Shown here piece by piece: positions 4,100 to 60,697 of a stretch of 60,697 bases of DNA. This DNA comes from Alistipes sp. (lineage in GTDB: Bacteria > Bacteroidota > Bacteroidia > Bacteroidales > Rikenellaceae). The DNA lies in the NCBI GenBank assembly GCA_017517705.1, contig JAFWYM010000040.1, positions 1 through 60,697 of the forward strand. Direction: 5' to 3'. Within the stretch, counting starts at the first letter, position 1, and each line of letters begins with the position of its first letter. The translations under genes and the position numbers were made by a program. The notes below the pieces were generated by a model that saw nothing but the letters and a program-made list of their open reading frames with translations, did no database searches and was not told the origin of the DNA.

Positions 4100-4276
4100 A
4101 TTTGAGCAAAGAAATATTACCTTCGTGTGATATTATGCTAATGTAGTAGTGAGGTTAGGGAATTTAAGGAATTTAGGGAATTTAGGGATGGCACAATAAA
4201 AGCACCAATCTCTCTAAACCCTCAATGTTCGTTACTAAGGTTTTTAATTACAAGCCCTTATCTTTGATTAATCCCG
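4100..4276. other. Intergenic spacer with a short 9-mer array
   Basis: This stretch between the upstream end of pdxA and the 213-residue membrane protein contains GTAGTGAGG followed by four imperfect 9-base units of the form TTTAGGGAA at about 4155-4188. The same unit makes up the larger islands at 41.4, 47.9 and 54.4 kb. No gene is seen. Confidence 0.5.
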
Positions 4277-41085: not shown

Positions 41086-41529
41086 GCGGGCTACCATGAC
41101 GGCTGTTGTTGTGTGGGGAGTATAGGGAGTATAGGGAGTTTAGGGAGTTTAGGGAGTATAGGGAGTATAGGGAGTATGGGTAATATGGGTAGTATGGGTA
41201 GTTATCTGATAGCGCTTTACCCACTCTCCCCATTCTACCCACTCTACCCAGGCTCCCCATGACTGCGCTATTAGTTATAGGGAGTTTAGGGAGTTTAGGG
41301 AGTATAGGGAGTTATCTGTTAGCGCTTTACCCAATCTCCCCATTCTACCCACTCTACCCAGGCTCCCCATAACTGCGCTATTAGTTATAGGGAGTTTAGG
41401 GAGTTTAGGGAGTTTAGGGAATATAAGGAAAACGATAATTCACTAATTTCCCTAAATTCCTTAATCTCCCTAATTTCCCTACTCACTGCTCACTGCTCAC
41501 TCCTCACTCCTCACTACTCATTGTTTTAA
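41086..41529. repeat. Repeat island 1 (9-mer arrays, two 78-base units, 7-mer array)
   Basis: No gene. In order: (GGGAGTATA/GGGAGTTTA)n from 41118; GGGTAGTAT units; 78-base unit at 41201-41278; GGGAGTTTA units; 78-base unit at 41311-41388; GGGAGTTTA units; the core GGAAAACGATAATTCACTAA at 41428-41447; inverted TTCCCTAAA units; and a 7-mer array (CACTGCT/CACTCCT) at about 41480-41520. It lies between convergent genes. Short frames here (peptides rich in LYS or GSM) only translate the repeats. Confidence 0.85.
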
Positions 41530-41570
41530 AACAAAGAGAGCACCCAAAATTGGATGCTCTCTGCTTTGTT
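41530..41570 (-). terminator. rplS terminator
   Basis: On the minus strand AACAAAG.AGAGAGCA pairs with TGCTCTCTTTGTT, followed by TTAAAAC, 15 bases after the rplS stop. Stem of about 15 pairs with one bulge. Confidence 0.8.
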
Positions 41571-41584
41571 GCGCCTGCCAAGGA

Positions 41585-41962
41585 CTACTCCTCGGTTCTC
41601 TTCATGCGGCGCTCCTTGATGCGTGCCTTCTTACCTGTAAGGTCACGGAGGTAGTAGATACGTGCGCGACGTACTACACCGTACTTGTTCACCTCGATCT
41701 TGTCGATGTGGGGTGAGTAAAGAGGGAAGATACGCTCTACACCAACACCGTTAGATACCTTACGGATGGTGAACATCTTTGTGCGGCCGGTACCCTTAAT
41801 CTGGATAACTACACCACGGAAGCTCTGCAAGCGCTCCTTGTTACCCTCGATGATACGGTACGTTACGGTGATAGTATCACCAGCACCAAACTTGGGCACA
41901 TCCTGCTCGCCCTTCTCCCACATCTGCTCGTTCACGAGTCTGATCAATGCATCTTTGTTCAT
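41585..41962 (-). CDS. rplS: 50S ribosomal protein L19
   Basis: Ribosomal protein at the 30S-50S interface. 125 residues from ATG at 41962: [44 protein letters not shown], then [20 protein letters not shown] and [18 protein letters not shown], all diagnostic of L19. The frame is open to 41998 but the extra 12 residues are not part of the family. A strong promoter 156 bases upstream leaves an unusually long leader. Confidence 0.97.
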
Positions 41963-42111
41963 TGTTGCAACAAAATTTAAATGTTTATCGCTCAACATTA
42001 TCGCTGCCTAAGCAGTACCATAACGGCTCCTCCGCCGATAATCCACATCCCGAGTTAGGCTTACGCCCCCTTGGTTGCACCCTGCTTATGCCCTATATAA
42101 GAGGTTGATAC
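41963..42111 (-). promoter_or_regulatory. Long structured leader of rplS (candidate L19 autoregulatory leader)
   Basis: The expected start site near 42111 gives a leader of about 150 bases. It contains GCCTAA and TTAGGC arms about 50 bases apart enclosing a CGGC-GGAGGA-GCCG hairpin. L19 leaders are known in Firmicutes and Flavobacteria; whether this one belongs to that class is inference. Confidence 0.45.
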
Positions 42112-42117
42112 GGGGTG

Positions 42118-42149
42118 CAAAGATAGGTAAATAATTTTTCTAACACAAA
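42118..42149 (-). promoter_or_regulatory. rplS promoter
   Basis: Minus strand TTTG (42149-42146), 20 bases, TATCTTTG (42125-42118), an exact Bacteroidetes-type match. Confidence 0.7.
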
Positions 42150-42164
42150 TATTTTGTAAAAAAA

Positions 42165-42284
42165 GAGGCTGAATAAAAAGTGTATTTTGTCGTTATGCTC
42201 GCCCTCAAAATGCTCATTTACGCCAAGTAAACTCCGCTTTTTCGGGCTTCGCAAGCCTAAAACTACATCTTTTTATTCAACCTC
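42165..42284 (-). repeat. 120-base structured element, copy 1
   Basis: Ends GAGGCTGAATAAAAAG (42165-42180) and CTTTTTATTCAACCTC (42269-42284) pair with one mismatch. Inside are the hairpins TTTAC-GCCAA-GTAAA and GGGCTT-CGC-AAGCC. It follows the acyl-CoA dehydrogenase terminator by 11 bases. The copy at 55149-55270 has nearly the same interior but compensated arm changes. The strand given is that of the upstream genes. Confidence 0.75.
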
Positions 42285-42295
42285 CTAACAAAAAT

Positions 42296-42327
42296 GGGGA
42301 TGACAAATTTACTTTTTAGTCATCCCC
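42296..42327 (-). terminator. Acyl-CoA dehydrogenase terminator with conserved loop
   Basis: GGGGATGAC (42296-42304) with GTCATCCCC (42319-42327); minus-strand loop TAAAAAGTAAATTT, identical to the one after infC, followed by ATTTTTG. Confidence 0.8.
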
Positions 42328-42348
42328 TCTTTACTAACTATATAGTCT

Positions 42349-44058
42349 CTATCCGAAGAGTTCTACATCGCTCTTCTCCGACGTGTTGATATAGTAAGCG
42401 GCCTCGGTAATCTTCTTCGCGGCATACTTGACATATATCTTCGCGGCGTTGAGGTAGTCGGTCTCGACCTCCGTAGCCTGGCGCAGCATGAGGTGCGAGA
42501 TGAGGATGTAGCCCGCAATCTCTACCAGACGGCGCGAGTGAAGCTCCTTATAGCCGTTAGCCTCCTTGTCTATGCTCTCCACGCGCTCGACAACCTGCTC
42601 GTAGACCTTGCGTAGCTCCTCGAGCTGTGCTGCCATGGCTGCCGTAGCCTCTGAGCGGGGCTCCGCCTCGTAGCGAAGCATCTGCTCGAGGTATGTGCCC
42701 TTGGTCACGTGGTTGATGGCGGCAACCACCTGCAGCTGTGTCGTACCCTCGTAGATGTTCATGATGCGTGCATCGCGGTAGAGGCGCTCGCAGGCGTAGT
42801 CCTTCATATATCCCGAGCCACCATGTATCTGTATCGAGTCGTAGGCCACCTCGTTGGCATACTCCGAGGCAAACATCTTGGCCAAAGGTGTGAAGCCGTC
42901 GGCAAGGCGGTTGTAGAACTTCATCTCCTGGCGCTCCTCGGCCTCGAGTGAGCGGTCGTGAGAGATATGGGCAAGCTGCTTGTATATATCCACAAAGCGG
43001 GCAGTCTCGTAGAGCATGGCACGCGAGGCGAGGGTCTTAGCCTCCATGTTCTTGAGCATCTCGCGCACGGCAGCGAACTCGTTGATGGCCTTGCCAAACT
43101 GCTCACGCTCGGCGGCATACTTCAATGCCTCGCGGTAGGCAGCCTCGCAGAGACCCGTAGACTGTGCTGCGATACCCAGGCGTGCAGCGTTCATGAGGCT
43201 CATGACGTACTTTATGAGTCCCATCTTACGGTCGCCAACAAGCACCGCAGGGGCATTGTTGAACACCAGCTCGCATGTGGGTGAGCCCTTGATACCCAAT
43301 TTGTTCTCTATGCGGCGCACCTTGACGCCACCATCGCGCTTGTCGTAGATGAGCATCGACAGACCGCGGGCATCCTTCGTGCCCTCCTCGGTACGTGCCA
43401 ACACCAGCGATATGTCGCCGTCGCCATTTGTGATGAAGCGCTTGCAGCCGTTCAGGCGCCATACGCCGGCAGCCTCATCCCACGTGGCCTTGAGCATCAC
43501 AGCGCCAAGGTCGGAGCCCGCATCGGGCTCGGTGAGGTCCATGGCGCAGGTCTCGCCTGCCGACACGCGGGGCAGGAACTTAGCCTTGATATCCTCCGTG
43601 GCGAACTCGTTGATGGTCTCGGCGCAGTCCTGCAAGCCCCAGATGTTCTCGAAGCCGGCATCGGCACGTGCCACCATCTCGTTAGCCATGGCGAAGCACG
43701 TAACGGGCATATTGAGACCTCCGAAGCGGCGGGGGAGGGTCATGCCTCCAAGGCCGGCAGCATTGAGAGCCTCGAGGTTGCGCACCGTGCCCGAGGCGTA
43801 CTCCACATGGTCGTTAACGACACGTGGGCCCTCATGGTCGACACTCTCGGCATTTGCGGCGATAACCTCGCCACATACATCACCCACGATATCCAACACG
43901 CGGCGGTACGAGTCCAGAGCATCCTCCGCATCCTGGGGTGCATAGTCGTACTCCGCAGCATCGGCAAAGTTACGCTCCTTGAGCTCGATAATCCTCTTCA
44001 TCAACGGATGTGAGAGGTGGTATTGTAGGTCTTTATTATCTGAAAAAAAGTTTGCCAT
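42349..44058 (-). CDS. Acyl-CoA dehydrogenase
   Basis: 569 residues, longer than short-chain enzymes (about 380). The core shows GEVIAANAESVDHEG, CAMDLTEPDAGSDLGAV (flavin and substrate loop), CKRFITNGDGDISLVLARTEEG, and the C-terminal helices with QIHGGSGYMKDYACERLYRDARIMNIYEGTTQLQ; the acidic residue in YEGT is the expected catalytic base. About 130 further residues form a helical extension as in very-long-chain-type members. etfA ends 7 bases upstream and etfB precedes it, so electrons pass to the encoded flavoprotein. Chain-length preference is not determinable. Confidence 0.92.
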   Translation of the reverse strand: MANFFSDNKDLQYHLSHPLMKRIIELKERNFADAAEYDYAPQDAEDALDSYRRVLDIVGDVCGEVIAANAESVDHEGPRVVNDHVEYASGTVRNLEALNAAGLGGMTLPRRFGGLNMPVTCFAMANEMVARADAGFENIWGLQDCAETINEFATEDIKAKFLPRVSAGETCAMDLTEPDAGSDLGAVMLKATWDEAAGVWRLNGCKRFITNGDGDISLVLARTEEGTKDARGLSMLIYDKRDGGVKVRRIENKLGIKGSPTCELVFNNAPAVLVGDRKMGLIKYVMSLMNAARLGIAAQSTGLCEAAYREALKYAAEREQFGKAINEFAAVREMLKNMEAKTLASRAMLYETARFVDIYKQLAHISHDRSLEAEERQEMKFYNRLADGFTPLAKMFASEYANEVAYDSIQIHGGSGYMKDYACERLYRDARIMNIYEGTTQLQVVAAINHVTKGTYLEQMLRYEAEPRSEATAAMAAQLEELRKVYEQVVERVESIDKEANGYKELHSRRLVEIAGYILISHLMLRQATEVETDYLNAAKIYVKYAAKKITEAAYYINTSEKSDVELFG

Positions 44059-44065
44059 AGCTTCG

Positions 44066-45085
44066 TTACTTTGAGTTCTGTTTGTAATACTTTATCATCT
44101 TGGGGATGACCTCCTCGACGCTACCCGTGATGGCGTAGTCGGCAATCTTCGTTATGGGCGCTGCGGGGTCGGTGTTGATAGATACGATCATCGCCGAGCC
44201 ATCCATACCTGCCGTATGCTGTATCTGTCCCGAGATACCGCAGGCGATATATAGCTTGGGGCGCACCGTGACACCCGTCTGACCTATCTGACGCTCATGC
44301 TCCGTGAAGCCTGCATCGACAGCCGCACGTGAGGCTCCCACCTCGCCGCCGAGGACGTCGGCCAACTCGTGCACGAGCTTGAAGCCCTCCTTCGAGCCTA
44401 CGCCGTAGCCTCCGGCCACGATGATAGAGGCACCCTTGATGTTTATCTTGCGCTCCTCGATGTGGCGCTCGACGATGCGCACAGCCAGATCCGTATCCTT
44501 AACCATAGGCTTCCAGTCGATGACCCTCACCTCGCCTTTGGCGGGTGTGGCGAGAGCCTCCTTGCGCATCACACCCTCGCGTACTGTTGCCATCTGCGGG
44601 CGGCACTCGGGGTTGACGATGGTGGCGATGATGTTACCTCCGAAGGCGGGGCGTATCTGGTAGAGCAACGAGTCGTACTCCTTGCCCGTCTTGGCATCCT
44701 TATGCTCGCCGATGACAAGCTCCGTGCAGTCGGCCGTAAGACCGCTGTGCAGTGCTGACGATACGCGCGGTGCAAAGTCGCGACCCACGGGCGTAGCGCC
44801 AAAGAGCGCAATCTGGGGCTTCTCCTTCTCGATAAGTCCCACCATTACGGCGGTGTGTGGCAGGGTGCGGAAGGGGGCAAAAATAGCGTCGTCGGCAACC
44901 CATACCGTGTCGGCGCCATACTTGGCCAACTCGGGAGCAAGAGCCTCGACATCCTTGCCTATAACCACCGCTTCGAGCTTCACGCCAAGCGTGTTGGCCA
45001 GCTCGCGGCCCTTAGTGAGGAGCTCCAACGACACGTCGGCAATCTCCCTATCCTCAATCTCGATATATACAAATACGTTATTCAT
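44066..45085 (-). CDS. etfA: Electron transfer flavoprotein, alpha subunit
   Basis: 339 residues. N-terminal domain (VFVYIEIEDREIADVSLELL), then the FAD domain with GVGSKEGFKLVHELADVLGGEVGASRAAVD, QIGQTGVTVRPKLYIACGISG and the closing GSVEEVIPKMIKYY. Accepts electrons from the acyl-CoA dehydrogenase. It lies 21 bases after etfB and 7 before the dehydrogenase gene. Confidence 0.95.
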   Translation of the reverse strand: MNNVFVYIEIEDREIADVSLELLTKGRELANTLGVKLEAVVIGKDVEALAPELAKYGADTVWVADDAIFAPFRTLPHTAVMVGLIEKEKPQIALFGATPVGRDFAPRVSSALHSGLTADCTELVIGEHKDAKTGKEYDSLLYQIRPAFGGNIIATIVNPECRPQMATVREGVMRKEALATPAKGEVRVIDWKPMVKDTDLAVRIVERHIEERKINIKGASIIVAGGYGVGSKEGFKLVHELADVLGGEVGASRAAVDAGFTEHERQIGQTGVTVRPKLYIACGISGQIQHTAGMDGSAMIVSINTDPAAPITKIADYAITGSVEEVIPKMIKYYKQNSK

Positions 45086-45106
45086 AGTTCACATGTTTTT
45101 GAGGGG

Positions 45107-45982
45107 TTAACCGAGCGTGTGGCTCGCAATAAGCTCCTGCATGAGAGCCTCGATATCCTTGTCGTCGGCAGTGAGGCTCTTGGCCTCCTTGGCCTGGAAT
45201 ACGACATTCTCAATCTTCTTAACCTTCGTGGGCGAGCCGCTGAGACCGAGCTGTGCGGGGTCGGGGTCTACATCTGCTGCCGCGAACTCCACGATGTGGA
45301 GGTACGAGCGCTCGTCGATAAAGCTCTTACGCTTGTCGTCGGCTGTGGCGAGCTCCGATGTGGCAAGGGCATACTTATATTTCATCACGCGCTTGGCGTT
45401 GCGGGGGCGGCACTCCTTGGCCGAGGCGTTGACCGTGATTACGGCAGGAAGGGGCGATACTACAACCTCCGAGCCACGCTCCAAGCGGCGCTTTATGGTT
45501 ATCTCCGTGTCGTTGATGGCGATGAGCTCCTCGGCGTATGTCACCTGCGGGAGGCCGAGCTTCTCGGCAACCTGGGGACCCACCTGCGCCGTGTCGCCAT
45601 CGATAGCCTGACGGCCTGCAACGACAATGTCGGGGTTTATCTTGCGTAGTGCGCATGCCAAGGCGTATGACGTAGCCAAGGTATCCGAGCCTGCGAACTC
45701 CTTGCCTGAGAGGAGGTAGCCACCATCCGCACCACGGAACATAGCCTCGCGGATGACATCAGCAGCACGCTGGGGGCCCATGGTGAGCACGTGTACCGTG
45801 GCATTGCCTATCGTGTCCTTCATCTGTAGGGCCATCTCCAAGGCGTTCAAATCTTCGGGGTTGAAGATTGCAGCGAGGGCAGCGCGGTTGACCGTACCCT
45901 CGGCAGTCATAGCATCCTTGCCCACATTACGTGTGTCGGGCACCTGCTTTGCCATAACTACAATTTTTGTAACTCTTTCCAT
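45107..45982 (-). CDS. etfB: Electron transfer flavoprotein, beta subunit
   Basis: 291 residues. Family motifs are VVMAKQVPDTRNVGKDAM, AIFNPEDLNALEMALQMKD, VHVLTMGP, DIVVAGRQAIDGDTAQVGPQVAEKLGLPQVTYAEEL and SPLPAVITV. It is first in the etfB-etfA-dehydrogenase unit. ATG at 45982. The length is close to that of EtfB proteins from anaerobes, some of which work in electron bifurcation; that cannot be judged here. Confidence 0.95.
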   Translation of the reverse strand: MERVTKIVVMAKQVPDTRNVGKDAMTAEGTVNRAALAAIFNPEDLNALEMALQMKDTIGNATVHVLTMGPQRAADVIREAMFRGADGGYLLSGKEFAGSDTLATSYALACALRKINPDIVVAGRQAIDGDTAQVGPQVAEKLGLPQVTYAEELIAINDTEITIKRRLERGSEVVVSPLPAVITVNASAKECRPRNAKRVMKYKYALATSELATADDKRKSFIDERSYLHIVEFAAADVDPDPAQLGLSGSPTKVKKIENVVFQAKEAKSLTADDKDIEALMQELIASHTLG

Positions 45983-46034
45983 AATTGTTATTATTATGTT
46001 GTCAATCTCTTCTGTTTTGTGCGGTTAGGCGCGT

Positions 46035-46042
46035 CAAAGATA
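46035..46042 (-). promoter_or_regulatory. -7 element of the etfB operon
   Basis: TATCTTTG on the minus strand, about 53 bases before the ATG. A TTTAGG word upstream is at a non-standard distance. Confidence 0.4.
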
Positions 46043-46150
46043 CTCACTTTTGCCTAAATCGCCATAAGTTTTAATGCTTATTTTCTATGTTTTATCTTCA
46101 ATGTGCAGAGCCTCAGGGCATTGCACTTTTTCTTTATTAGACTCTTTTGC

Positions 46151-47308
46151 CTATTCGTTGATGTCTACATTTATACGTCGGTAGCAGTTGAGTATGTTGT
46201 ATGCTGCCACCTCGGGGCGAAAGCGTGTCACGTAGCTCTTGCCGCGCTGCTTCATCCTCTGGCGCAGGTCGTCGTCCGAGGCTACGAGCTCTATGGCCTC
46301 GGCGAGGCCTTTGGCGTCGTTGCTCTCGACATATATCGAGTTGGAGCCTCCCGCCTCCTCGTGCGATGTGCCACGCGAGGCGATGACGGGTGTTTGGGTT
46401 GTGAGTGCCTCGACGATGGATGTGGCGAAGCCCTCGTATAGCGACATCTGTACGTATGCCTCGGCGAGCGTGTATAGTGCCACGCGGTGGGGTGTTGTCG
46501 CGGGCTCGACGATATGCAGGCGGTGGGCTATGCCGAGCTCCTCGGCGTGTGCTTGGAGCACGGCGGTATAGGCTGTTGTGCGCGATGCCACCACCAGGTG
46601 TATGTCGTCGGCCGCCATCGTGAGGGCGTCGAGGATGATGGCTGTATTCTTGCGCTGATGCTGCGTGCCAGCGGTGAGGATGAAGCGCTCGGGGAGGGAG
46701 TAGCGCTCTCTCACGGCCGCGAGCTCCTCGGCATTGGGTGTTATGCTGTAGGCGCGGTCGCAGCCACGGTAGATGACGTCTATCCTGTCGCTGTCGATGC
46801 CGAAGGCCTCGATAATCTCCCTCTTGAGGCTCTCGCTGAGGGCTATGATGCGGTCGGCGCGTTTCAGCGACGAGAGGGTCATCAGGCGTCGCGTGGCGCT
46901 CTCCACGGGATTCTGAAATACCTTGGTGCTGAGGTAGTCGAGCGAGTGTACTGTGACCACGGAGCGTATGTTGCGGCGTCCGAGGCCGTAGGGTAGGTGT
47001 TCGTCGAGGCTGTGGTATAGCTCCACGTCGCCACGCTCGAGGTCGCGCCCTATGGCATAGAGCCTCCATAGCCACGCCATCTTGCGCCATAGACGCCCAT
47101 CGGGGAGCATCGCCTCCACATTGTGGCGCAGGGCGAGGGCCTGGTAGTCGGCATTCGACGATAGGCTCTCGGCATAGAGACGGAAGTAACCGTGGCGCGG
47201 GCATGTCGCAGCCATCGCCTCGATGACATATCGCGAGTACGACGATAGCGCCGTATCGCCCTCGATGGCATGTCGGGCATCGAATCCTATGGTCACTGTT
47301 CGCTTCAT
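46151..47308 (-). CDS. Glycosyltransferase, GT4-like (group 1)
   Basis: 385 residues with a GT-B layout. N-terminal: TIGFDARHAIEGDTALSSYSRYV and SVVTVHSLDYLSTKVF; C-terminal: ILTAGTQHQRKNTAIILDAL and the nucleotide-sugar motif SLYEGFATSIVEALTTQTPVIAS with E-x7-E geometry. It probably adds a sugar to a surface polysaccharide or lipid. ATG at 47308 (MKRTVTIGFDARHA) is preferred over the GTG at 47329. A TACCTTTG -7 box is at 47349-47356. It is not linked to other glycan genes here. Confidence 0.88.
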   Translation of the reverse strand: MKRTVTIGFDARHAIEGDTALSSYSRYVIEAMAATCPRHGYFRLYAESLSSNADYQALALRHNVEAMLPDGRLWRKMAWLWRLYAIGRDLERGDVELYHSLDEHLPYGLGRRNIRSVVTVHSLDYLSTKVFQNPVESATRRLMTLSSLKRADRIIALSESLKREIIEAFGIDSDRIDVIYRGCDRAYSITPNAEELAAVRERYSLPERFILTAGTQHQRKNTAIILDALTMAADDIHLVVASRTTAYTAVLQAHAEELGIAHRLHIVEPATTPHRVALYTLAEAYVQMSLYEGFATSIVEALTTQTPVIASRGTSHEEAGGSNSIYVESNDAKGLAEAIELVASDDDLRQRMKQRGKSYVTRFRPEVAAYNILNCYRRINVDINE

Positions 47309-47348
47309 AATATACGTATGTACGCGCACACGTATGCGCGCATTGCCA

Positions 47349-47356
47349 CAAAGGTA
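47349..47356 (-). promoter_or_regulatory. -7 element of the GT4 gene
   Basis: TACCTTTG on the minus strand, 41 bases before the ATG. No -33 element at standard spacing. Confidence 0.4.
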
Positions 47357-47460
47357 ATACTTTTTTCCGAAAATACGATATGTAATGGGGATTTAGTGCC
47401 GAAAGTGGCCCTTGCTTTTTTTAGAATGACGTGAGCGGTTATCCTGTACGCCAGAATAAA

Positions 47461-47492
47461 ATTACTCACTCCTCACTCCTCACTCCTCATTG
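47461..47492. repeat. 7-mer array (CTCACTC)
   Basis: About four CACTCCT units, immediately beyond the 3' end of the ncRNA candidate. The same 7-mer borders other repeat islands. Confidence 0.7.
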
Positions 47493-47493
47493 A

Positions 47494-47651
47494 CAAAAAG
47501 TGGGCCTACCGAAAGATGTTCGACAGGTGACGAGTACCGCCGCCTCTCTTAGCAACAATACCCGCCACTCCGTGGAGCTGACGCCTATTGCCGCAATCCT
47601 TCGATAGGCCCTTCCAACCTAAAACTACTAACCTAATTGAACCTTAAAACT
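47494..47651 (-). ncRNA. Structured non-coding RNA candidate
   Basis: A non-coding interval with a perfect promoter and strong folding. On the minus strand, P1 GGGCCTATCGAAGGAT (47611-47596) pairs with ATCTTTCGGTAGGCCC (47517-47502) with two non-Watson-Crick positions. P2 GCGGCAATA (47594-47586) pairs fully with TATTGTTGC (47560-47552) using two G-U pairs. A CTCCACGGAG hairpin caps P2 (47577-47568). P1 is followed by ACTTTTTG, a terminator-like end. A 40-base AU-rich 5' tail precedes P1. Length is about 158. There is no long reading frame. It lacks the SRP, RNase P and tmRNA signature sequences; a Bacteroidales 6S-like RNA is one possibility but not shown. Confidence 0.65.
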
Positions 47652-47657
47652 TCGCTG

Positions 47658-47689
47658 CAAAGGTAAGGGGTATTTTTTAAATAAACAAA
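47658..47689 (-). promoter_or_regulatory. Promoter of the ncRNA candidate
   Basis: Minus strand TTTG (47689-47686), 20 bases, TACCTTTG (47665-47658), an ideal match; predicted start near 47651. Confidence 0.7.
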
Positions 47690-47744
47690 TAATTTACTAA
47701 AAAGTTTTAATAATTTTCTTAAGAATTTTAGATTGGGAGCTATG

Positions 47745-48041
47745 AACAATGAGTAGTGAGGAGTGAGCAGTGAGTAGTGAGTAGTGAGTAGTGGTTCTGG
47801 GTAGTATGGGTAGTATGGGTAGTTATGGGTAGTTATCTGTTAGCGCTCTACCCAATCTCCCCAGACTACCCACTCTACCCTGGCTCCACATAACTGCGCT
47901 ATTAGTCATAGGGAATATAGGGAATTTAAGGAATTTAGGGAAATTAGTGAATTATCGTTTTCCCTAAACTCCCTAAACTCCCTAAACTCCCTAAACTCCC
48001 TATTAATTACTCACTACTCACTCCTCACTACTCACTACTCA
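47745..48041. repeat. Repeat island 2
   Basis: No gene. In order: 7-mer array (GAGTAGT) at 47750-47793; GGGTAGTAT units; one 78-base unit at 47832-47909; TTTAGGGAA units; core TTAGTGAATTATCGTTTTCC at 47944-47963; inverted CCCTAAACT units to about 48000; 7-mer array (ACTCACT) to 48041, ending at the ATPase stop codon. Same order of parts as island 1. Confidence 0.85.
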
Positions 48042-49283
48042 CTAAAATGGTGCATCATCGTCGTCCCAGGCTGCCATGCTCTGCTTGCAGCTCGGCTCTA
48101 CGGGTATCTCGCTCTGCTGTGGCGGTGGAGTAACAGGAGTAACAGGAGTAACAGGTACCCCCACCCCTGTTACTCTGTTACTCTTGTTACTCTTGTTACT
48201 AAGGGAGTCAAAAGTCGCCACTAGGTTTCCCTTTTGGCATATAAAGCCGCGGTCGAGGTCGCGCTTAATCTTCATCTGCGCAGCCCTGTTGCTCACGCCT
48301 TGAAGCTCCATAATCTTCTTGACCAGCGTACTACGCTCGATAGTGCCACCGTACATATCCTCGAGTATGGCCACAACCTCGGGACGCCTATCCTCCTCTA
48401 TGGAGGTTGGTATGTCGCATAGCTCGGGGATGCCCTCGTCGTTGATGGTGAAGGCGAAGCGCTCGAAGGGCTCATTACGGCAGTACTGAGGCTCGACAAT
48501 CGAGGTGTCGCCGGCGCGGTGTACGAAGATTACCGTCTCGGCCTTGCGCAGCAGCGACGAGCCGAGGTGGCCACGTGCCTTGTCGCTACCAGGATTGGTG
48601 TGTAGTACACATATTATATGTGTCTGGGCCATCGTCGAGAGCGCCATGAGTTCCATGACCAGGGCATCGCTCTCCTCAAGGTCGTTGGTATTGCGCTGCA
48701 GGTCGGCAATGCCGTCGATGACGACGATGTCGTAGGGCATAAGGCTCATGGCATCGAGCATCCTCGCCTTACGCTCCGCGGGTGAGAGCTCACGTAGCGC
48801 CAATGTCGTAAGGCGTGGCTCGAAGCTGGAGCCTCCGAGCTTAGCGCCCGTCATCCTGCTTATGCGATCCACAACCTTGCGCACATGACGCTCACCCTGC
48901 TCGGTATCTACCCATAACACGTTAATGTTGTCACACTTATCAACATTAGCGAAGTTATTTATGCCCTTAAAGGGCATGGCCATGGCGGAGGCTACAAGAG
49001 CAGAGGCGAGAAATGTCTTTTTACTCTTCGCCTCGCCACAGATAGCCGATATGTTGCCTACGCTACATACGCAGCTATCATTAATGCTAATTAGTGGCTT
49101 TAGCTCTGGTAGCTGCTTCGTCATGTCGACGACGTAGGGGTGTATGCGCTCCTCGGCCATCTCTTGCTCCCACTTCTTTATGGCCTTCTCGAGCGATATG
49201 CCTGTTAAGGAGTTGAACTCCTCGGGCATGGGCTTGTGCTGCTTGGCAATCCTTATGCGACTGCTCAATGATTCATTTAGCAT
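48042..49283 (-). CDS. AAA-type (RepA/RecA-fold) ATPase with a repeat-derived tail
   Basis: 413 residues. Walker A GEAKSKKT at 83-90 and Walker B YDIVVID at 184-190, with DTEQGERHV and HTNPGSDKARGHLGSS between and after, match the AAA_25/RepA-like ATPases common on Bacteroidetes mobile elements. A winged-helix-like segment (about 300-350, TLVKKIMELQGVSNRAAQMKI) follows. From residue 360 the tail reads SLSNKSNKSNRV then VTPVTPVTPP and is encoded by the GTAAC 9-mer array at 48129-48200; the same array occurs in non-coding DNA at 49835-50018. The last residues are acidic (WDDDDAPF). It stands alone, so a remnant of a mobile element is possible. Confidence 0.8.
   Translation of the reverse strand: MLNESLSSRIRIAKQHKPMPEEFNSLTGISLEKAIKKWEQEMAEERIHPYVVDMTKQLPELKPLISINDSCVCSVGNISAICGEAKSKKTFLASALVASAMAMPFKGINNFANVDKCDNINVLWVDTEQGERHVRKVVDRISRMTGAKLGGSSFEPRLTTLALRELSPAERKARMLDAMSLMPYDIVVIDGIADLQRNTNDLEESDALVMELMALSTMAQTHIICVLHTNPGSDKARGHLGSSLLRKAETVIFVHRAGDTSIVEPQYCRNEPFERFAFTINDEGIPELCDIPTSIEEDRRPEVVAILEDMYGGTIERSTLVKKIMELQGVSNRAAQMKIKRDLDRGFICQKGNLVATFDSLSNKSNKSNRVTGVGVPVTPVTPVTPPPQQSEIPVEPSCKQSMAAWDDDDAPF
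48129..48200. repeat. GTAAC-family inverted 9-mer array inside the ATPase gene
   Basis: Left units GAGTAACAG (48129-48153), core GGTACCCCCACCCC (48154-48167), right units TGTTACTCT (48168-48200). It is the inverted counterpart of the array at 49835. Nine-base units keep the reading frame. Confidence 0.85.
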
Positions 49284-49320
49284 AATGATTAATATTTAAG
49301 ATGTTATATATGTATGATTG

Positions 49321-49349
49321 ACCGTGATGGCAGATGTGCCAGCCACGGT
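49321..49349 (-). promoter_or_regulatory. Imperfect palindrome at the ATPase transcription start
   Basis: ACCGTG and TGGC (49321-49326, 49328-49331) pair with GCCA and CACGGT (49338-49341, 49344-49349). It begins one base downstream of the -7 box, so it would cover the start site as an operator, or form a 5' hairpin in the message. Confidence 0.5.
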
Positions 49350-49350
49350 G

Positions 49351-49381
49351 CAAATATACATCATCAGAAGGCCGTTGTCAA
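49351..49381 (-). promoter_or_regulatory. Promoter of the ATPase gene
   Basis: Minus strand TTG (49381-49379), 20 bases, TATATTTG (49358-49351). Confidence 0.55.
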
Positions 49382-49429
49382 GTATTTTAACTATAAATTT
49401 TTTCTATATTTTTTAGAAAGCGTGTAGGG

Positions 49430-49834
49430 CGGTAAGAGAGGCATAACGTAGAGCGCAGTTATGGGGAGCCTGGGTAGAGTGGGTAGAGTGGGTAGAATGG
49501 GTAAAGCGCTAACAGATAACTACCCATATTCCCCATACTACCCATACTCCCCATACTCCCCATATTCCCCATACTACCCATAACTAATAGCGCAATTATG
49601 GGGAGCCTGGGTAGAATGGGTAGAGTGGGTAGACTGGGTAAAGCGCTAACAGGTACTACCCATACTACCCATATTACCCACACTCCCCATACTACCCATA
49701 ACTAAAAGCGCAGTTATGGGGAGCCTGGGTAGAGTGGGTAGACTGGGTAGAGCGCTAACAGATAACTACCCATATTCCCCACACTACCCATACTACCCAT
49801 TAATTACTCACTACTCACTACTCACTACTCACTT
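49430..49834. repeat. Repeat island 3, G-rich part
   Basis: No gene. Three 78-base-type units in the opposite orientation to islands 1 and 2: 49443-49520, 49580-49656 (one base shorter in an arm) and 49698-49766 (69 bases, one 9-mer fewer). They are separated by TACCCATAC and CCCCATACT units. A 7-mer array (ACTCACT) fills 49806-49834. The island lies between divergent genes, upstream of both. Confidence 0.85.
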
Positions 49835-50018
49835 AGTAACAGGAGTAACAAGAGTAACAGAGTAACAGGGGTGGGGGTACCTGTTACTCCTGTTACTCTT
49901 GTTACTCTTGTTACTCCTGTTACTCTTGTTACTCTTGTTACTCTTGTTACTCTTGTTACTCTTGTTACTCTTGTTACTCCTGTTACTCCTGTTACTCCTG
50001 TTACTCTTGTTACTCCTT
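49835..50018. repeat. GTAAC-family inverted 9-mer array, longest copy
   Basis: Left units AGTAACAGG (49835-49867), core GGGTGGGGGTACC (to 49881), then about fifteen TGTTACTCT/TGTTACTCC units to 50018. The core is the exact inverse of that inside the ATPase gene. Translated, it gives only NKSNRSN-type peptides. Confidence 0.9.
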
Positions 50019-50062
50019 ATCGATAATAGTGCTTTCGTGTAGCAATTATTAATTTTTTTTCG

Positions 50063-50070
50063 TATCTTTG
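50063..50070 (+). promoter_or_regulatory. -7 element of yebC
   Basis: TATCTTTG 62 bases before the ATG, preceded by a run of eight T residues. It starts 44 bases after the end of the GTAAC array. Confidence 0.5.
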
Positions 50071-50131
50071 CGCCATTATATATATACAAGAGGTATAGAT
50101 AGTTAAAAATCAAAATAAAAACACAACAATT

Positions 50132-50869
50132 ATGGGAAGAGCATTTGAGTATCGCAAGGCGAGAAAGATGAAGCGCTGGGGACACATGGCGCGCGTATTT
50201 ACGAAGATTGGCAAGGAGATAGAGATGGCAGTGAAGGCCTCGGGTCCCGACCCCGCATCGAACCTGCGCCTCCGTCTACTCATGCAGAACGCCAAGGCCG
50301 AGAATATGCCCAAGGAGAATGTCGAGCGTGCCATAAAGCGCGCTACGGACAAGGACTCGGCAGACTACAAGGAGATGATATACGAGGGTTATGGCCCTCA
50401 CGGCATCGCCGTATTGGTGGAGACAGCCACGGACAACACCAACCGCACGGTGGCATCGGTGCGCATGTACTTCAACAAGTATGGCGGCACGCTCGGAACA
50501 TCGGGCTCGGTAGGCTTCATGTTCGAGCATAAGTGCGTATTCAAGTTCAAGCCCACGGCGGGTGCCGACCTCGAGGAGATGGAGCTCGAGATGATTGACT
50601 TCGGTGTCGACGAGTTCTACGCCGAGGAGGGCGAGGTGACGGTATATGCCGCATACGAGTCTTTCGGCCAGATACAGACATGGATTGAGGCTAAGGGCTA
50701 CGAGCTCGTCTCGGGTGAGGCCGTGCGCATACCCACAGACACCAAGGAGCTGAGCCCCGAGGAGCGCGAGGCGGTGAACAAGCTCATCGAGCACCTCGAG
50801 GAGGATGACGACGTGACAAACGTATACACCACAATGGCCGAGTCGGAGGATGACGACGCGGAGGAGTAG
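50132..50869 (+). CDS. yebC: YebC/PmpR-family protein
   Basis: 245 residues, full length. Starts MGRAFEYRKARKMKRWGHMARVFTKIGKEI, followed by NMPKENVERAIKRATD, YEGYGPHGIAVLVETATDN, NKYGGTLGTSGSVGFMFEHK and an acidic C-terminus. YebC proteins have been reported as transcription regulators and, more recently, as factors aiding translation of proline-rich stretches. It is followed by ileS after 29 bases, probably in one transcript. Confidence 0.94.
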   Translation: MGRAFEYRKARKMKRWGHMARVFTKIGKEIEMAVKASGPDPASNLRLRLLMQNAKAENMPKENVERAIKRATDKDSADYKEMIYEGYGPHGIAVLVETATDNTNRTVASVRMYFNKYGGTLGTSGSVGFMFEHKCVFKFKPTAGADLEEMELEMIDFGVDEFYAEEGEVTVYAAYESFGQIQTWIEAKGYELVSGEAVRIPTDTKELSPEEREAVNKLIEHLEEDDDVTNVYTTMAESEDDDAEE

Positions 50870-50898
50870 TAACAAACATTAATCACACGATAAAGGTA

Positions 50899-53800
50899 AT
50901 GAGTAAGTTTCAAGAGTATAAGGGTTTAGACCTCGCAGGCGTGGCCGACGACGTGCTCAAGCGCTGGACCGAGGATGACACCTTCCACAAGAGCATAACG
51001 ACACGCGAGGGTCACCCCACATTCGTATTCTACGAGGGTCCCCCCTCGGCAAACGGCACCCCGGGCATCCACCACGTGATGGCGCGTACCATCAAGGATG
51101 TATTCTGCCGCTTCAAGACACAGCAGGGCTACCTCGTACACCGCAAGGCGGGATGGGACACACACGGACTCCCCGTGGAGCTCGGCGTGGAGAAGAAGCT
51201 CGGCATAACAAAGGAGGATATAGGCAAGAAGATAACCATCGAGGAGTACAACCGCCAGTGCCGCGAGGCCGTGATGGAGTTCACCGACATCTGGGAGGAC
51301 CTCACACGCAAGATGGGCTACTGGGTGAACATGGACGACCCCTATATCACCTACGACAACAAGTTTATCGAGACGCTATGGTGGCTCCTCAAGCAGCTCT
51401 ACGACAAGAACCTCCTCTACAAGGGCTACACCATACAGCCCTACTCGCCCGCAGCGGGCACGGGACTCTCGACACACGAGCTCAACCAGCCGGGCTGCTA
51501 CCGCGATGTTAAGGATACCACCTGCACGGCGCAGTTCCGCATCCTCGACCCCAAGGCCGAGATGGAGGGCTGGGGCACGCCCGTATTCCTTGCGTGGACG
51601 ACAACACCGTGGACGCTACCCTCGAATACGGCACTCTGCGTAGGCCCCAAGATTGACTACGTGGCGGTGCGCACCTTCAACCCCTACACTGCAGAGAAGA
51701 TTACGGCTGTCGTTGCTGAGCCTCTGTTGTACTCACTCTTCAACAAGAAGGCCGAGGGCATAGCCCTTAGCGAGTATAAGGCGGGCGATAAGCTCATACC
51801 CTTCGAGGTTGTGGGTAAGTGGCGTGGCACGGAGCTCGAGGGCATGCACTACGAGCAGCTCTTGCCGTGGGTTAAGCCCGTGGAGGCTGACGAGAAGGGC
51901 AACTGGAAGGAGGCCTCGGCCAAGGCCTTCCGCGTAATCCTCGGCGACTATGTGACGACGGAGGATGGTACGGGTATAGTACACATCGCGCCCACGTTTG
52001 GTGCCGACGATGCCTTCGTGGCACGTCAGGCAGGCATACCGTCGCTCTTCATGATAAACAAGCGCGGTGAGACACGCCCCATGGTCGACTTTGCGGGTAA
52101 GTTCTACCTCAAGGCCGAGCTCGACGATGCGTTTGTTAAGGAGTGCGTAGATGGCGCCTATGACGAGTATGAGGGACGCTTCGTGAAGAACGCCTACGAC
52201 CCGCAGTTCACCGTCGATGGTCGCTACGACGAGAAGGCTGCGCAGGCTGCCGAGAACCTCGACATATACATCTCGCTCAAGCTCAAGGAGGCAAACAAGG
52301 CGTTCAAGATTGAGAAGCACACGCACAACTATCCCCACTGCTGGAGAACGGATAAGCCCGTGTTGTACTACCCCTTGGATTCGTGGTTCATACGTACCAC
52401 GGCGCTCCGCGAGCGTATGATGGAGCTCAACAAGACCATCTACTGGAAGCCCGAGTCTACGGGCACGGGACGCTTCGGCAAGTGGCTCGAGAATATCAAC
52501 GACTGGAACCTCTCGCGCTCGCGCTTCTGGGGCACGCCGCTACCCATCTGGGCTACGGAGGATAGAACGGAGCTTAAGTGTATAGGCTCTGTCGAGGAGC
52601 TCATCGCTGAGATTGAGAAGGCTGTTGCTGCCGGCGTTATGGCCGAGAACCCATATAAGAACTTCAAGGTGGGCGATATGTCTAAGGAGAACTACTCGAC
52701 CGAGAACATCGACCTCCACCGCCCCTATGTCGACAGCATCGTCTTGGTGTCGTCGAAGGGTGAGCCTATGCGTCGTGAGCCCGACCTCATCGACGTATGG
52801 TTCGACTCGGGAGCCATGCCCTACGCTCAGGTACACTACCCCTTCGAGAATAAGGAGGGCTTCGACCAGATATACCCCGCGGACTTCATCGCCGAGGGTG
52901 TCGACCAGACACGCGGATGGTTCTACACGTTGCACGCCATCGCCACGATGTTGTTCGACTCTGTGGCGTTCAAGAACATCATCTCTAACGGCCTCGTGTT
53001 GGACAAGAACGGCAATAAGATGTCTAAGCGTCTGGGTAATGCCGTAGACCCCTTCGAGGTGCTTAAGAAGTATGGTGCCGATGCTACGCGCTGGTATATG
53101 ATATCTAACTCGCAGCCGTGGGACAACCTCAAGTTCGATGTCGACGGTGTCGACGAGTGCCGCCGTAAGTTCTTCGGCACGCTCTACAACACCTACTCGT
53201 TCTTCGCCCTCTATGCCAACATCGACGGCTTCACGGGCAAGGAGCAGGAGATTCCCGTTGCTTCGCGCCCCGAGATTGACCGCTGGATACTCTCGGAGCT
53301 CAACTCTATGGTTCGCGATGTCACCGCCTACCTCGAGGACTACGACCCCACACCTGCGGCACGCCGCATCGATGGCTTCGTGGGCGAGCTGCTCTCGAAC
53401 TGGTATGTGCGCCTCAACCGTAAGCGCTTCTGGGGTGGCACGATGACCGAGGATAAGCTCGCAGCATATCAGACGCTCTACACATGTCTGGAGACCGTGG
53501 CTATGGCCGCTGCGCCCATCGCTCCGTTCCTCACCGACCGCATATTCACGGATCTCAATGCCGTGAGTGGCCGCCATACGGAGTCGAGCGTACACCTCGC
53601 GGAGTACCCCACATGCAACGAGGCACTCATCGACGCGGAGCTCGAGGCTATGATGTCGTTGGCACAGCGCACATCATCGATGGTCTTGGCACTACGTCGT
53701 AAGGTCAACATCAAGGTGCGCCAGCCGTTGCAGAAGATTATCATCCCCGTCTTGGATAAGACCATGGCTAAGCATATCGAGGCGGTGCGCCCGCTCATCA

Positions 53801-54384
53801 TGAACGAGGTGAATGTTAAGGACATAGAGCTTATCTCGGATACCACGGGCATCATCACCAAGCGCATAAAGCTCAACTTCAAGACCTTCTGCCAGCGCTA
53901 TGCACAGCTTGCGAAGGCCATGTCGGCACTTGTCGCCACGTTTACGCAGGAGCAGATTGCCGCTATCGAGGCAAATGCCGAGACCGTTCTCGAGGTTGCG
54001 GGCCAGCAGGTCACCGTCACGGCTGCCGACTTCGACATCACGAGCGAGGATATGCCCGGATGGTTGGTGTCATCGGAGGGTAAGCTCACCGTGGCCTTGG
54101 ATATAACCATCAGCGAGGAGCTTCGCCGTGAGGGTGTCGCCCGCGAGCTTGTCAACCGCATACAGAACATACGTAAGGATTCGGGCTTCGAGGTTACGGA
54201 TAAGATACGTGTGGAGATTGAGGCCACCGCAGCTACGACTACGGCAGTTGAGAGCTTCGCCGAGTATATCGCACAGCAGACGTTAGCATTGGATGTCAAG
54301 GCTGTTGCCGCACCCCAGGGCGCGTTTGTTGTCGACAGCGACCTCGACGACGAGCCTCTGAAGATTGCCGTCACCAAGGCGTAA
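50899..54384 (+). CDS. ileS: Isoleucyl-tRNA synthetase
   Basis: Charges tRNA-Ile and edits valine. 1161 residues, the long form found in Bacteroidetes. Seen: PPSANGTPGIHHV (HIGH-type motif), the editing-domain region WTTTPWTLPSNTALCVG, DVWFDSGAMPYAQ, KMSKR at 707-711 and the anticodon-binding domain; a C-terminal domain reaches DLDDEPLKIAVTKA. The final zinc-binding cysteines of the E. coli type are absent, as expected for the long form. A partial 78-base repeat begins directly at the stop codon. Confidence 0.97.
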   Translation: MSKFQEYKGLDLAGVADDVLKRWTEDDTFHKSITTREGHPTFVFYEGPPSANGTPGIHHVMARTIKDVFCRFKTQQGYLVHRKAGWDTHGLPVELGVEKKLGITKEDIGKKITIEEYNRQCREAVMEFTDIWEDLTRKMGYWVNMDDPYITYDNKFIETLWWLLKQLYDKNLLYKGYTIQPYSPAAGTGLSTHELNQPGCYRDVKDTTCTAQFRILDPKAEMEGWGTPVFLAWTTTPWTLPSNTALCVGPKIDYVAVRTFNPYTAEKITAVVAEPLLYSLFNKKAEGIALSEYKAGDKLIPFEVVGKWRGTELEGMHYEQLLPWVKPVEADEKGNWKEASAKAFRVILGDYVTTEDGTGIVHIAPTFGADDAFVARQAGIPSLFMINKRGETRPMVDFAGKFYLKAELDDAFVKECVDGAYDEYEGRFVKNAYDPQFTVDGRYDEKAAQAAENLDIYISLKLKEANKAFKIEKHTHNYPHCWRTDKPVLYYPLDSWFIRTTALRERMMELNKTIYWKPESTGTGRFGKWLENINDWNLSRSRFWGTPLPIWATEDRTELKCIGSVEELIAEIEKAVAAGVMAENPYKNFKVGDMSKENYSTENIDLHRPYVDSIVLVSSKGEPMRREPDLIDVWFDSGAMPYAQVHYPFENKEGFDQIYPADFIAEGVDQTRGWFYTLHAIATMLFDSVAFKNIISNGLVLDKNGNKMSKRLGNAVDPFEVLKKYGADATRWYMISNSQPWDNLKFDVDGVDECRRKFFGTLYNTYSFFALYANIDGFTGKEQEIPVASRPEIDRWILSELNSMVRDVTAYLEDYDPTPAARRIDGFVGELLSNWYVRLNRKRFWGGTMTEDKLAAYQTLYTCLETVAMAAAPIAPFLTDRIFTDLNAVSGRHTESSVHLAEYPTCNEALIDAELEAMMSLAQRTSSMVLALRRKVNIKVRQPLQKIIIPVLDKTMAKHIEAVRPLIMNEVNVKDIELISDTTGIITKRIKLNFKTFCQRYAQLAKAMSALVATFTQEQIAAIEANAETVLEVAGQQVTVTAADFDITSEDMPGWLVSSEGKLTVALDITISEELRREGVARELVNRIQNIRKDSGFEVTDKIRVEIEATAATTTAVESFAEYIAQQTLALDVKAVAAPQGAFVVDSDLDDEPLKIAVTKA

Positions 54385-54612
54385 GGCGCAATTATAAGGA
54401 GCCTGGGTAGAGTAGGGAATTTAGGGAATTTAGGGAAATTAGGGAGATTAGTGAATTATCGTTTTCCTTATATTCCCTAAACTCTCTAAACTCCCTAAAC
54501 TCCCTATTCCCCCGAGTAACGCGAGTAACGGCAGTAACGGATACACCACCCCGTTACTGCCGTTACTCCGTTACTATTACCCATACTCCCCATATTCCCC
54601 ACTCTCCCCACA
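54385..54612. repeat. Repeat island 4
   Basis: No gene. In order: partial 78-base unit (54385-54414, GGCGCAATTAT...GCCTGGGTAGAGT); TTTAGGGAA units; core TTAGTGAATTATCGTTTTCC at 54448-54467; CCCTAAACT units; GTAAC-type array 54514-54576 with units AGTAACGGC, core ATACACCACCCC and GTTACTGCC units; then CCCATACTC units. Confidence 0.85.
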
Positions 54613-54617
54613 CCACA

Positions 54618-54659
54618 AAAGCAAAGGGATGACTAACAAATTAGCCATCCCTTTGCTTT
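54618..54659. terminator. Bidirectional terminator between ileS and the DksA-like gene
   Basis: AAAGCAAAGGGATGACTAA pairs with TTAGCCATCCCTTTGCTTT around a CAAA loop with one mismatch. A and T runs on both sides suit both convergent genes. Confidence 0.85.
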
Positions 54660-54678
54660 TATCACACTCCTCACCCAA

Positions 54679-55053: not shown

Positions 55054-55092
55054 AATCGTAGCGTTTTAGTACGGTTATACACTTATATTAAG

Positions 55093-55124
55093 CGAAGATA
55101 CGCAAAAATAATGACACATGCAAA
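55093..55124 (-). promoter_or_regulatory. Promoter of the DksA-like gene
   Basis: Minus strand TTTG (55124-55121), 20 bases, TATCTTCG (55100-55093), one base from consensus. The ATG is at 55053. Confidence 0.6.
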
Positions 55125-55148
55125 TATTCTTATAAAAAAAGCATAAAA

Positions 55149-55270
55149 AGAGAGTGAATAAAAAGTGTATTTTGTCGTTACGCTTGCCCTCAAAATGCTC
55201 ATTTACGCCAAGTAAACTCCGCTTTTTCGGGCTTCGCAAGCCTAAAACTACATCTTTTTATTCACTCTCT
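55149..55270 (-). repeat. 120-base structured element, copy 2
   Basis: Perfect 17-base arms (55149-55165 and 55254-55270; AGAGAGTGAATAAAAAG and its complement). The 88-base interior differs from the copy at 42165 at only two positions, while arm bases differ with matching changes on both sides. It lies between the CoA-transferase terminator and the DksA-like promoter. Confidence 0.8.
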
Positions 55271-55279
55271 TGAGTATCA

Positions 55280-55311: not shown

Positions 55312-55345
55312 TTATCCTATCTAGCAACAGTGGCTGTTGACAAGA

Positions 55346-58023: not shown

Positions 58024-58026
58024 AGC

Positions 58027-60524: not shown

Positions 60525-60697
60525 GGGGACTTAGGGGAGTATAGGTAGTATAGGTAGTATAGGTAGCGTGGGTAGCGTGGGTAGCGTGGGTAGTTATGGG
60601 TAGTTATGGGTAGTTATGGGTAGTGTGGGTAGGGTGGGAAGTGTGGGTAGTGTGGGGAGTGTGGTGAGCGTGGGTAGTATGGGTAGCGAGGGTAGAG
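60525..60697. repeat. Repeat island 5 (reaches window edge)
   Basis: No gene. About 18 imperfect 9- and 10-base units: GGTAGTATA, GGTAGCGTG, then three GGGTAGTTAT 10-mers and GGGTAGTGT variants. No core or inverted half is seen before the window ends. Positions 60394-60524 hold no recognised feature. Confidence 0.85.

Follow-up and report, generated by a model that had tools for sequence, protein, structure and literature searches.

Inverted repeat-array hairpins around a RecA-fold ATPase gene: a candidate mobile element in Alistipes

Why should the intergenic DNA of one bacterium hold several repeat families of unrelated sequence, all built as an array of short units, a core and an inverted array? 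The question is raised by contig JAFWYM010000040.1 of Alistipes sp. (assembly GCA_017517705.1), the whole of which (60,697 nucleotides) is called the window here, and in which an earlier note described three such families and proposed a common generating mechanism. We consider it likely, from comparison of related sequences, that the hairpins of family 3 are the two terminal ends of a candidate mobile element of approximately 1.6 kb, which carries the ATPase gene P0001 alone. Families 1, 2 and 4 probably derive from sister lineages of the element, as their ends or remnants, and are nested in the same intergenic islands.

Genomes and stretches of DNA are given codes (G### and L###, respectively). 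The window's own genome is G000 (1.99 Mb in 48 contigs, 96% complete), and the window is the whole of its contig C6. The comparison set consists of 268 genomes of the family, with a genus subset of 180, and includes a sister species (G075, Alistipes sp. RGIG5460, from sheep colon; stretches L111 and L196).

Inverted hairpin ends around P0001

P0001 lies between two family 3 hairpins which are inverted relative to each other (Table 1). The hairpin at the 3' end of the gene lies in frame within the sequence coding for the C-terminus of P0001, and the one on the 5' side has arms of 4 and 15 units. A second pair also surrounds the gene: the segment 47762-47924, with family 1 and 7-mer sequence, matches 49683-49833 in inverted orientation (window locus L239). 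At another locus, L257, TTAGGGA arms form part of the paired ends, so families 1 and 2 can also be ends.

In the end test, up to 0.8 kb downstream of the gene was reverse-complemented and compared with up to 1 kb upstream, using 400 mismatched pairs as the null. It was run on 70 of the 106 P0001 places, and five of these were too short on one side, leaving 65 loci. Inverted ends scored above the 95% null level (score 20) at 52 of the 65 (49/52 at at least 44% identity), giving a foldback-like arrangement, i.e., inverted terminal repeats that contain short tandem repeats. The median score over the 65 loci was 46, compared with 10 for mismatched pairs and 14.5 in direct orientation, and the median span between the outer edges of the matched ends was 1.58 kb. 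Arrays of period 7-10 lie within 1 kb of P0001 at 28 of the 30 best loci (each from a different species, the own and sister genomes among them) and on both sides at 24 of the 30. The background for random placement is 0.16 in five other species and 0.12 in the stretches of the sister and own genomes, the sister part of which was itself partly chosen for matches.

Only P0001 recurs broadly between the arrays. Of 653 open reading frames (ORFs) of at least 150 amino acids in the large stretches, eight have arrays on both sides, and the only recurrent family among them is P0001 (two of the eight). The elements contain 56 extra ORFs of at least 60 amino acids, among which only four pairs are alike, each common to two copies, and no second widely shared gene was found inside the elements. 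No recognised transposase was found between the ends; this does not extend to a comparison of the 56 extra ORFs with family libraries or to a genome-wide search for DDE transposases.

P0001 matches the Pfam family PF13481 (AAA_25) with an E-value of 5.8e-9 and 36.3 bits, against a curated cut-off of 27. It has the Walker A sequence GEAKSKKT, a motif retained in 51 of 52 elements, and the C-terminus AWDDDDAPF. There is also a weak PHROGs match to a DnaB-like helicase (E 5.6e-5), and a PDB search with the P0001 sequence gave no match. Judged by a ratio of nonsynonymous to synonymous substitution (dN/dS) of 0.21 over 348 codons, P0001 is under purifying selection relative to the sister species. 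An acidic ..PF tail ends 24 of 70 P0001 relatives (22 of 56 at at least 44% identity), and we take it to resemble the C-terminus of the single-stranded DNA-binding protein (SSB).

Relatives of P0001 at E 1e-20 or better occupy 106 places in 80 of the 268 family genomes. Among 393 sampled genomes of the wider order, no more than two others have a match at 1e-40 (37-38% identity). Remote homologs (33-41% identity, among the matches listed) occur on Bacteroidales plasmids and in phage records, and no P0001 relative was found in the viral contigs of IMG/VR.

Conserved layout and changing words

Each end can be read as a hairpin with three parts: an outer arm, mostly in 9-bp steps; a short, usually C-rich loop; and an inner arm, of which the first step is usually 8 bp. 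The two ends stand inverted relative to each other around P0001. Among 86 ends from 45 elements (a few of these ends, those of the window among them, come from other nested families), the outer-arm step is 9 in 114 of 218 cases, the inner-arm step is 8 in 151 of 246, and the first inner step is 8 in 57 of 70. The loop matches C[CG]CC[CT]{0,2}G in 52 of the 86 ends, and on the gene strand its content is C only in 42, both C and G in 16, G only in 11 and neither CCC nor GGG in 17.

The word repeated in the arms differs between elements (GTAAC, GTCAC, GTTAC, CGAAC, CTCAC, ATTAC, TTAAC, TTTCAC and others), but in the 25 elements displayed, both ends of one element have the same word. For example, L252 and L270, which belong to one genome and are 79% identical over the domain, have GTAAC and GTCAC, respectively. 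The four copies in G025 (one a fragment) have three words, and L239-L241 all have GTAAC. When word classes are mapped onto the protein tree of 46 elements, 27 changes are needed, against a shuffled mean of 30.1, with a value as low in 14 of 200 shuffles; six elements, including L239 and L243, had their classes assigned by hand, and an 'other' class took in the rare words. Judged from these sequences, the arms of one copy seem to change word together. The word of the ends varies while the layout stays, and this explains how unrelated sequences can be of one design, at least for family 3.

In the mechanism that we propose, the ATPase would recognise the shape of the hairpin and its loop, not the word, and would bring in proteins of host replication or repair, by which the element would be copied or moved. 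A change of word could spread to all four arms through slippage along an arm, fold-back copying across a hairpin and conversion between ends, a spread that we infer from the matching arms and ends. Facing units of family 3 arms agree in 45 of 53 cases (16 non-independent elements of the own genome and the sister), compared with 0.53 when partners are shuffled (P 0.001) and 0.80 when units are shuffled within arms (P 0.022), which fits fold-back copying of the kind described for hairpins in PMC8794818. More tentatively, these elements might belong to a class of transposase-less mobile DNA in which a RecA-fold ATPase, often with an SSB-like ..PF tail, acts on hairpins recognised by shape. Movement would then use template switching in host replication, and each round could rewrite the four arms.

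The array-core-inverted-array design holds for several unrelated families, both in the window and in 326 kb more of the genome. A period scan of 387,348 bases of own-genome DNA (the window plus L061-L080, with 16 of these 20 stretches picked for core matches) found 81 arrays of period 9, 10 of period 7 and 0-1 each of periods 8, 10 and 11, in agreement with the nine-base unit that the earlier note had described. The note had placed the family 2 core TTAGTGAATTATCGTTTTCC at 41428, 47944 and 54448, and it occurs there (41427-41446 on the minus strand; 47944-47963 and 54448-54467 on the plus strand). The three positions claimed for the family 3 core fared less evenly: it is exact near 48153 and, on the minus strand, near 49868, and the copy at 54541 is a variant, GGATACACCACCCC. 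The note had also set genome-wide recurrence of the cores as a test, and they do recur: 8 copies for family 2 (seven exact, one with one mismatch), 22 places at up to one mismatch for the family 1 core TTATCTGTTAGCGC and 73 for the family 3 unit pair GTTACTCYTGTTACTC (unit pairs, not elements), against 0, 0 and 1 for the reversed patterns used as controls. Two additional kinds of repeat are GGTTCTTATA units flanking GGGGCTGACGATACCCGCGCCC, and 7-mers at island edges.

The note had proposed to test whether flanking units always form inverted arrays; they do in two families and only partly in the third. Among own-genome arrays at most 60 bp apart (one stretch present on two contigs was counted twice), all 12 TTAGGGA pairs and all 14 GAGTAAC pairs are inverted with the G-rich arm first, whereas the 25 TGGGTAG pairs comprise 17 '+-', five '-+' via a second core and three direct. 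The gap between arms is 19 in 6/12 (family 2), 16 in 12/14 (family 3) and 15 in 13/17 (family 1) of the own-genome pairs, and it ranges from 1 to 41 in other species. The arms of one hairpin are often unequal in unit number, e.g., the 4 and 15 units given above. Single-strand folds of seven window elements have z-scores of -4.2 to -12.9, and known RNA families have no match anywhere in the window.

Two readings of the unit itself were also weighed. The first, a 7+2 unit of seven fixed and two variable letters, initially rested on a circular test; under a symmetric test, variable linker positions are supported in families 1 and 3, with position 5 also variable in family 1, but not clearly in family 2. 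The second takes the nine bases to be three codons; although several elements have a 3' end that overlaps the frame, steps of 8 bp are found in frame too, so coding leaves the nine-base unit unexplained.

The units are more widely common than the cores. The unit TTTAGGGAN of the TTAGGGA arrays occurs in 89 of the 268 family genomes and 3 of 22 genera, with few control matches, while the exact family 2 core occurs in one other of the 268 (G075). This spread makes an assembly artefact, which the note had named as a risk, unlikely. GGGTAGNNT was counted in 21 of the 268 genomes with an unclean control, because some genomes have its reversed pattern as a 9-mer unit. G201 contains part of the family 2 core, and the five stretches of it that were examined have no period-9 arrays.

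In 32 loci of other species (the first 30 TTAGGGA matches, L136-L165, plus L088 and L098), there are 19 G-then-C pairs at most 150 bp apart, mostly with different spacers, and two C-then-G pairs with arms more than 110 bp apart. Over all stretches, 36 of the 37 TTAGGGA pairs at most 60 bp apart have the G-arm before the C-arm (12 own, 6 sister, 18 others), with one direct and none reversed. G245, of a related genus (L223-L226), has similar islands with other words, namely AAAATTG 7-mers, AAAGTCCTT and AAAGGGCC, and has no P0001 match at 1e-20.

Of the array bases, 73-79% lie between genes, compared with 12-14% of all bases (by a simple ORF caller), and arrays are present in 14-33% of intergenic gaps, whatever the gene orientation. 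When the own genome is aligned with the sister G075, many islands are gaps between aligned gene blocks. At the 41.1-kb site, the sister has the family 2 hairpin and 7-mers without the two family 1 cassettes, and elsewhere it has the GGTTCTTATA family where the own genome carries families 1 and 3. Some gene-order breaks thus coincide with islands, since at several of them the two flanks map to separate contigs of G075 or have their order inverted. Contig ends lie within 300 bp of an array in 5 of 23 cases checked, and copies may be absent from the assembly.

Table 1. Repeat features and the ATPase gene in the window (strand as given; a dot means none)
Feature	Positions	Strand	Remarks
P0001, 413 aa, AAA_25 (RecA-fold) ATPase	48042..49283	-	From translation and Pfam; no other gene between the two inverted hairpins
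Family 3 hairpin at the gene's 3' end	48127..48200	.	Core 48149-48172, plus orientation; fold z -8.2
Family 3 hairpin on the gene's 5' side	49835..50015	.	Core 49863-49886, minus orientation; fold z -12.9
P0001 upstream (promoter-side) segment	49292..49419	-	Related segments, first codons included, also in gene-deleted copies
Island outside the 3' end	47750..48044	.	7-mer array, family 1 hairpin 47798-47880, family 2 hairpin 47908-48002, 7-mer array
Island between the gene and the 5' family 3 hairpin	49441..49833	.	Three family 1 hairpins and a 7-mer array
Island in which the left arm of a family 2 hairpin contains two nested family 1 cassettes; a 7-mer array follows	41116..41520	.	From alignment
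Family 2 hairpin	54413..54506	.	Intergenic, after a 1161-aa ORF; common to the sister species
Solo family 3 hairpin, variant core	54513..54577	.	Fold z -10.9; orthologous sister site without it
Family 1 type array	60538..60697	.	Reaches the contig end; neighbouring flank beside a gene-order break relative to the sister species
Short TTAGGGAAT array	4155..4188	.	Outside the range covered by the earlier note; present in the sister species too

Several further observations concern the islands and their surroundings. Between window positions 47366-60402 and L196, the order and orientation of segments differ in the sister, with breaks in or beside array islands. Window 55149-55346 and L196 5446-5504 differ by a non-array insertion ending in TTTTTATTCACTCTCTT, and a similar segment occurs elsewhere in L196. 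GGATCCTTCGACTACGCTTGCGCTCCGCTCAGGATGACA and its relatives are other dispersed repeats that adjoin islands (L061 6500-6900, L068 1430-1800, L063, L076). At L070 11863-12952 (G000 contig C5), a segment with a family 1 hairpin is present as two direct copies with a gene between them; the gene product matches the 23S rRNA-intervening-sequence protein family PF05635 at 31.2 bits, just under the cut-off of 33.8, and the corresponding sister site has a single hairpin and no gene.

Evidence for mobility and competing explanations

Three observations point to mobility: copies from which the gene is deleted, neighbour genes that mostly differ between elements, and a single clean site without the element. 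The promoter-side segment, together with the first codons, is found again in places where the remainder of P0001 is missing, and at L061 and L067 the copy is complete, with F3+, the promoter fragment and F3- (F3 being family 3) in the order and orientation of the intact element. L062 is complete by eye, and L064 and the sister's L111 are cut by a contig end on one side. As in miniature inverted-repeat transposable elements (MITEs), non-autonomous copies thus share their ends with a gene-bearing element (L061, L067 and, by eye, L062). One P0001 gene copy was found in the own genome; gene-deleted copies and solo hairpins outnumber this one intact copy, and most family 3 copies are without the gene. 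A neighbour gene is shared in 33 of 1326 element pairs. Where both sides are shared, the order is the same in four pairs and opposite in three, which look as if they had been inverted in place. The intergenic site orthologous to that of the L250 element is element-free in L163, from another species, with 216 bp between the neighbour-gene matches.

From these comparisons, the reading of family 3 as a putative mobile element is supported, and its role as the end of a one-gene element is well supported; families 1 and 2, which have its design and islands in common, are assigned by analogy. The earlier note had suggested a non-autonomous mobile element: this agrees with most family 3 copies, which have no gene, but a gene-bearing form exists in the window itself.

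A number of points weigh against this reading. Neither a target-site duplication nor an exact end was found, and movement was not observed, the flanks of the two element-free sites compared being too diverged to read a duplication; one of these comparisons (L069 with L274) is not clean, as the site is without P0001 but has another ORF between the neighbours. The automatic end test on the window copy chose the family 1 and 7-mer pair, and the family 3 pair was read from positions. Thirteen of the 65 loci did not score above the null, namely ten remote homologs (30-41%), L248, L264 and, only slightly under it, L269, and a few ORFs inside the elements are common to two copies. Neither the loop (17 ends without CCC or GGG, 11 with G only) nor the step rule is universal, and the word is weakly clustered on the tree, so some word inheritance remains. 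TTAGGGA arrays are abundant in G057 (98% complete), G245 and G236, in which P0001 was not found, and clear P0001 relatives occur without a TTAGGGA match in G044, G052, G071, G091, G103 and G105. No gene was found for families 1, 2 and 4, the scan of 653 ORFs giving no other recurrent gene between arrays. Lastly, RecA-fold ATPases are not known by themselves to move DNA.

The strongest competitor, which we consider unlikely, does without an element. Arrays would arise by slippage, be inverted by fold-back template switching and spread by homologous recombination, with the ATPase gene as a trapped passenger and the loss of SbcCD allowing hairpins to survive. SbcCD reportedly acts on palindromes in Escherichia coli, and its absence may let long hairpins persist. 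SbcD was found in one of the 180 genus genomes, compared with 12 of 14 control genomes (8 above the cut-off). Among 28 genomes of five genera, long SbcC matches occur only in G003, with short partial matches in six others and none in 21; G003 is also the only genome with neighbouring sbcC and sbcD matches. The matching family 3 arms, the gain and loss of modules at orthologous islands, the gene-order breaks in islands and the presence of arrays in 14-33% of intergenic gaps of every orientation are likewise in its favour. It leaves unexplained, however, why one gene family and no other (653 ORFs) recurs between inverted arrays, and why a 9/8 step layout is common to unrelated words.

Relatives without TTAGGGA arrays also lack SbcCD, so its loss is at most permissive, and we rejected it as the cause. 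Loss of mismatch repair was rejected too: MutS is above the cut-off in 26 of the 28 genomes tested, and the two exceptions, both array-bearing, are G234 (match split by contig ends) and G231 (77% complete, with a weaker MutS-like match). The one design that led the earlier note to suggest a common generating mechanism is explained, at least for family 3, by ends with a changing word and a largely constant layout. A purely replication- or repair-driven origin fails to explain the same gene between hairpins in species after species.

An integrated plasmid-like replicon is somewhat less probable still. In this account, P0001 is a replication helicase, the arrays are an iteron-like origin, and the element spreads by excision and integration via host recombination. 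The remote homologs on plasmids and in phage records, the match to a DnaB-like helicase and the repeats on both sides of a rep-like gene all argue for it. However, ten remote homolog loci are without inverted array ends, and the elements lie between apparently chromosomal genes with no widely shared second gene inside. Iterons are normally direct repeats bound by sequence, unlike the words here, which change between close relatives (L252 and L270). A viral origin was also considered and rejected: one array pattern led to three IMG/VR contigs with single direct arrays and no inverted partner, and the family 3 core had no match in IMG/VR. The three contigs (L216, L217 and L218) contain short direct arrays of TTTAGGGAG units.

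There is very little chance that the hairpins are functional RNA or DNA structures kept by selection, e.g., bidirectional terminators. They do form stable folds, and their arm polarity is constant, with close TTAGGGA pairs '+-' in 36/37, direct in one and '-+' in none. A terminator role was rejected, as there is no clear preference for convergent gaps. Arrays occur in 33% of convergent, 23% of tandem and 15% of divergent own-genome gaps of at least 120 bp, but the corresponding values are 14, 17 and 18% in the sister and 24, 26 and 17% in five other species. The content at orthologous sites also turns over. Weakest of all, and hardly credible, are repetitive extragenic palindromic (REP) sequences or bacterial interspersed mosaic elements (BIMEs) moved by a Y1 HUH transposase (REP-associated tyrosine transposase, RAYT), or RAYT/IS200 ends: the repeats are short, palindromic, intergenic and dispersed, with GTAG in family 1 units, but the Y1 family (PF01797) was not found in G000 and occurs in one of the 180 genus genomes (G004, itself without TTAGGGA or GGGTAG array matches).

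If the one-gene element is real, it would be a kind of mobile element with ends defined by layout, not sequence, and with no recognised transposase, and searches keyed on end sequence would miss others like it. In a large Alistipes-related group, it would account for a good part of the intergenic DNA that is filled with repeats, and perhaps also of the changes in gene order. The concerted change of its inverted repeats would be directly testable with two end sequences and one gene.

Comparison with known systems

Among the open-licence papers listed in our literature searches, none describes such an element in Alistipes, but several known systems share parts of it. One is the BrickBuilt MITE of Porphyromonas gingivalis, which is intergenic and multi-copy, with 23-bp direct tandem repeats between small inverted ends (PMC4596501). 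The repeats described here are likewise intergenic, multi-copy and tandem in a Bacteroidales host, whereas BrickBuilt has direct repeats in one sequence family, and its abstract names no associated gene. REP sequences and BIMEs with RAYT are also dispersed intergenic palindromes, unlike the present tandem word arrays in a genome where no Y1 transposase was found.

Heptamer arrays have been described for GGGNATC in Xanthomonas and Nostoc and for TAACTGA in Beggiatoaceae and some Bacteroidetes (PMC4692102, PMC4679880). According to their abstracts, these too are short tandem words mostly outside genes, and GGGNATC is G-rich. They differ in being direct arrays (with one indirect repeat for TAACTGA), and the abstracts mention no inverted partner arrays around a gene. 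For P0001 itself, the remote homologs (33-41%) are AAA_25 or DnaB-RepA-like ATPases of Bacteroidales plasmids and phage records. The ten remote homolog loci without inverted-array ends, in which they differ from P0001, come from whole genomes, the plasmid and phage records not having been examined for ends.

A further likeness is to the foldback-type DNA transposons of Drosophila, of which FB, Galileo and Tetris are examples. Long inverted ends that can contain tandem repeats are common to all three and to the elements described here. The account of Galileo in PMC4168063 includes long inverted ends in which direct tandem repeats of variable number are possible, and chromosomal inversions caused by ectopic recombination between copies. 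Galileo owes its place in the P superfamily to its transposase. Here, by contrast, the only shared gene encodes a RecA-fold ATPase. The elements also differ from foldback transposons in that each end is itself a looped hairpin, and the repeat word differs between copies.

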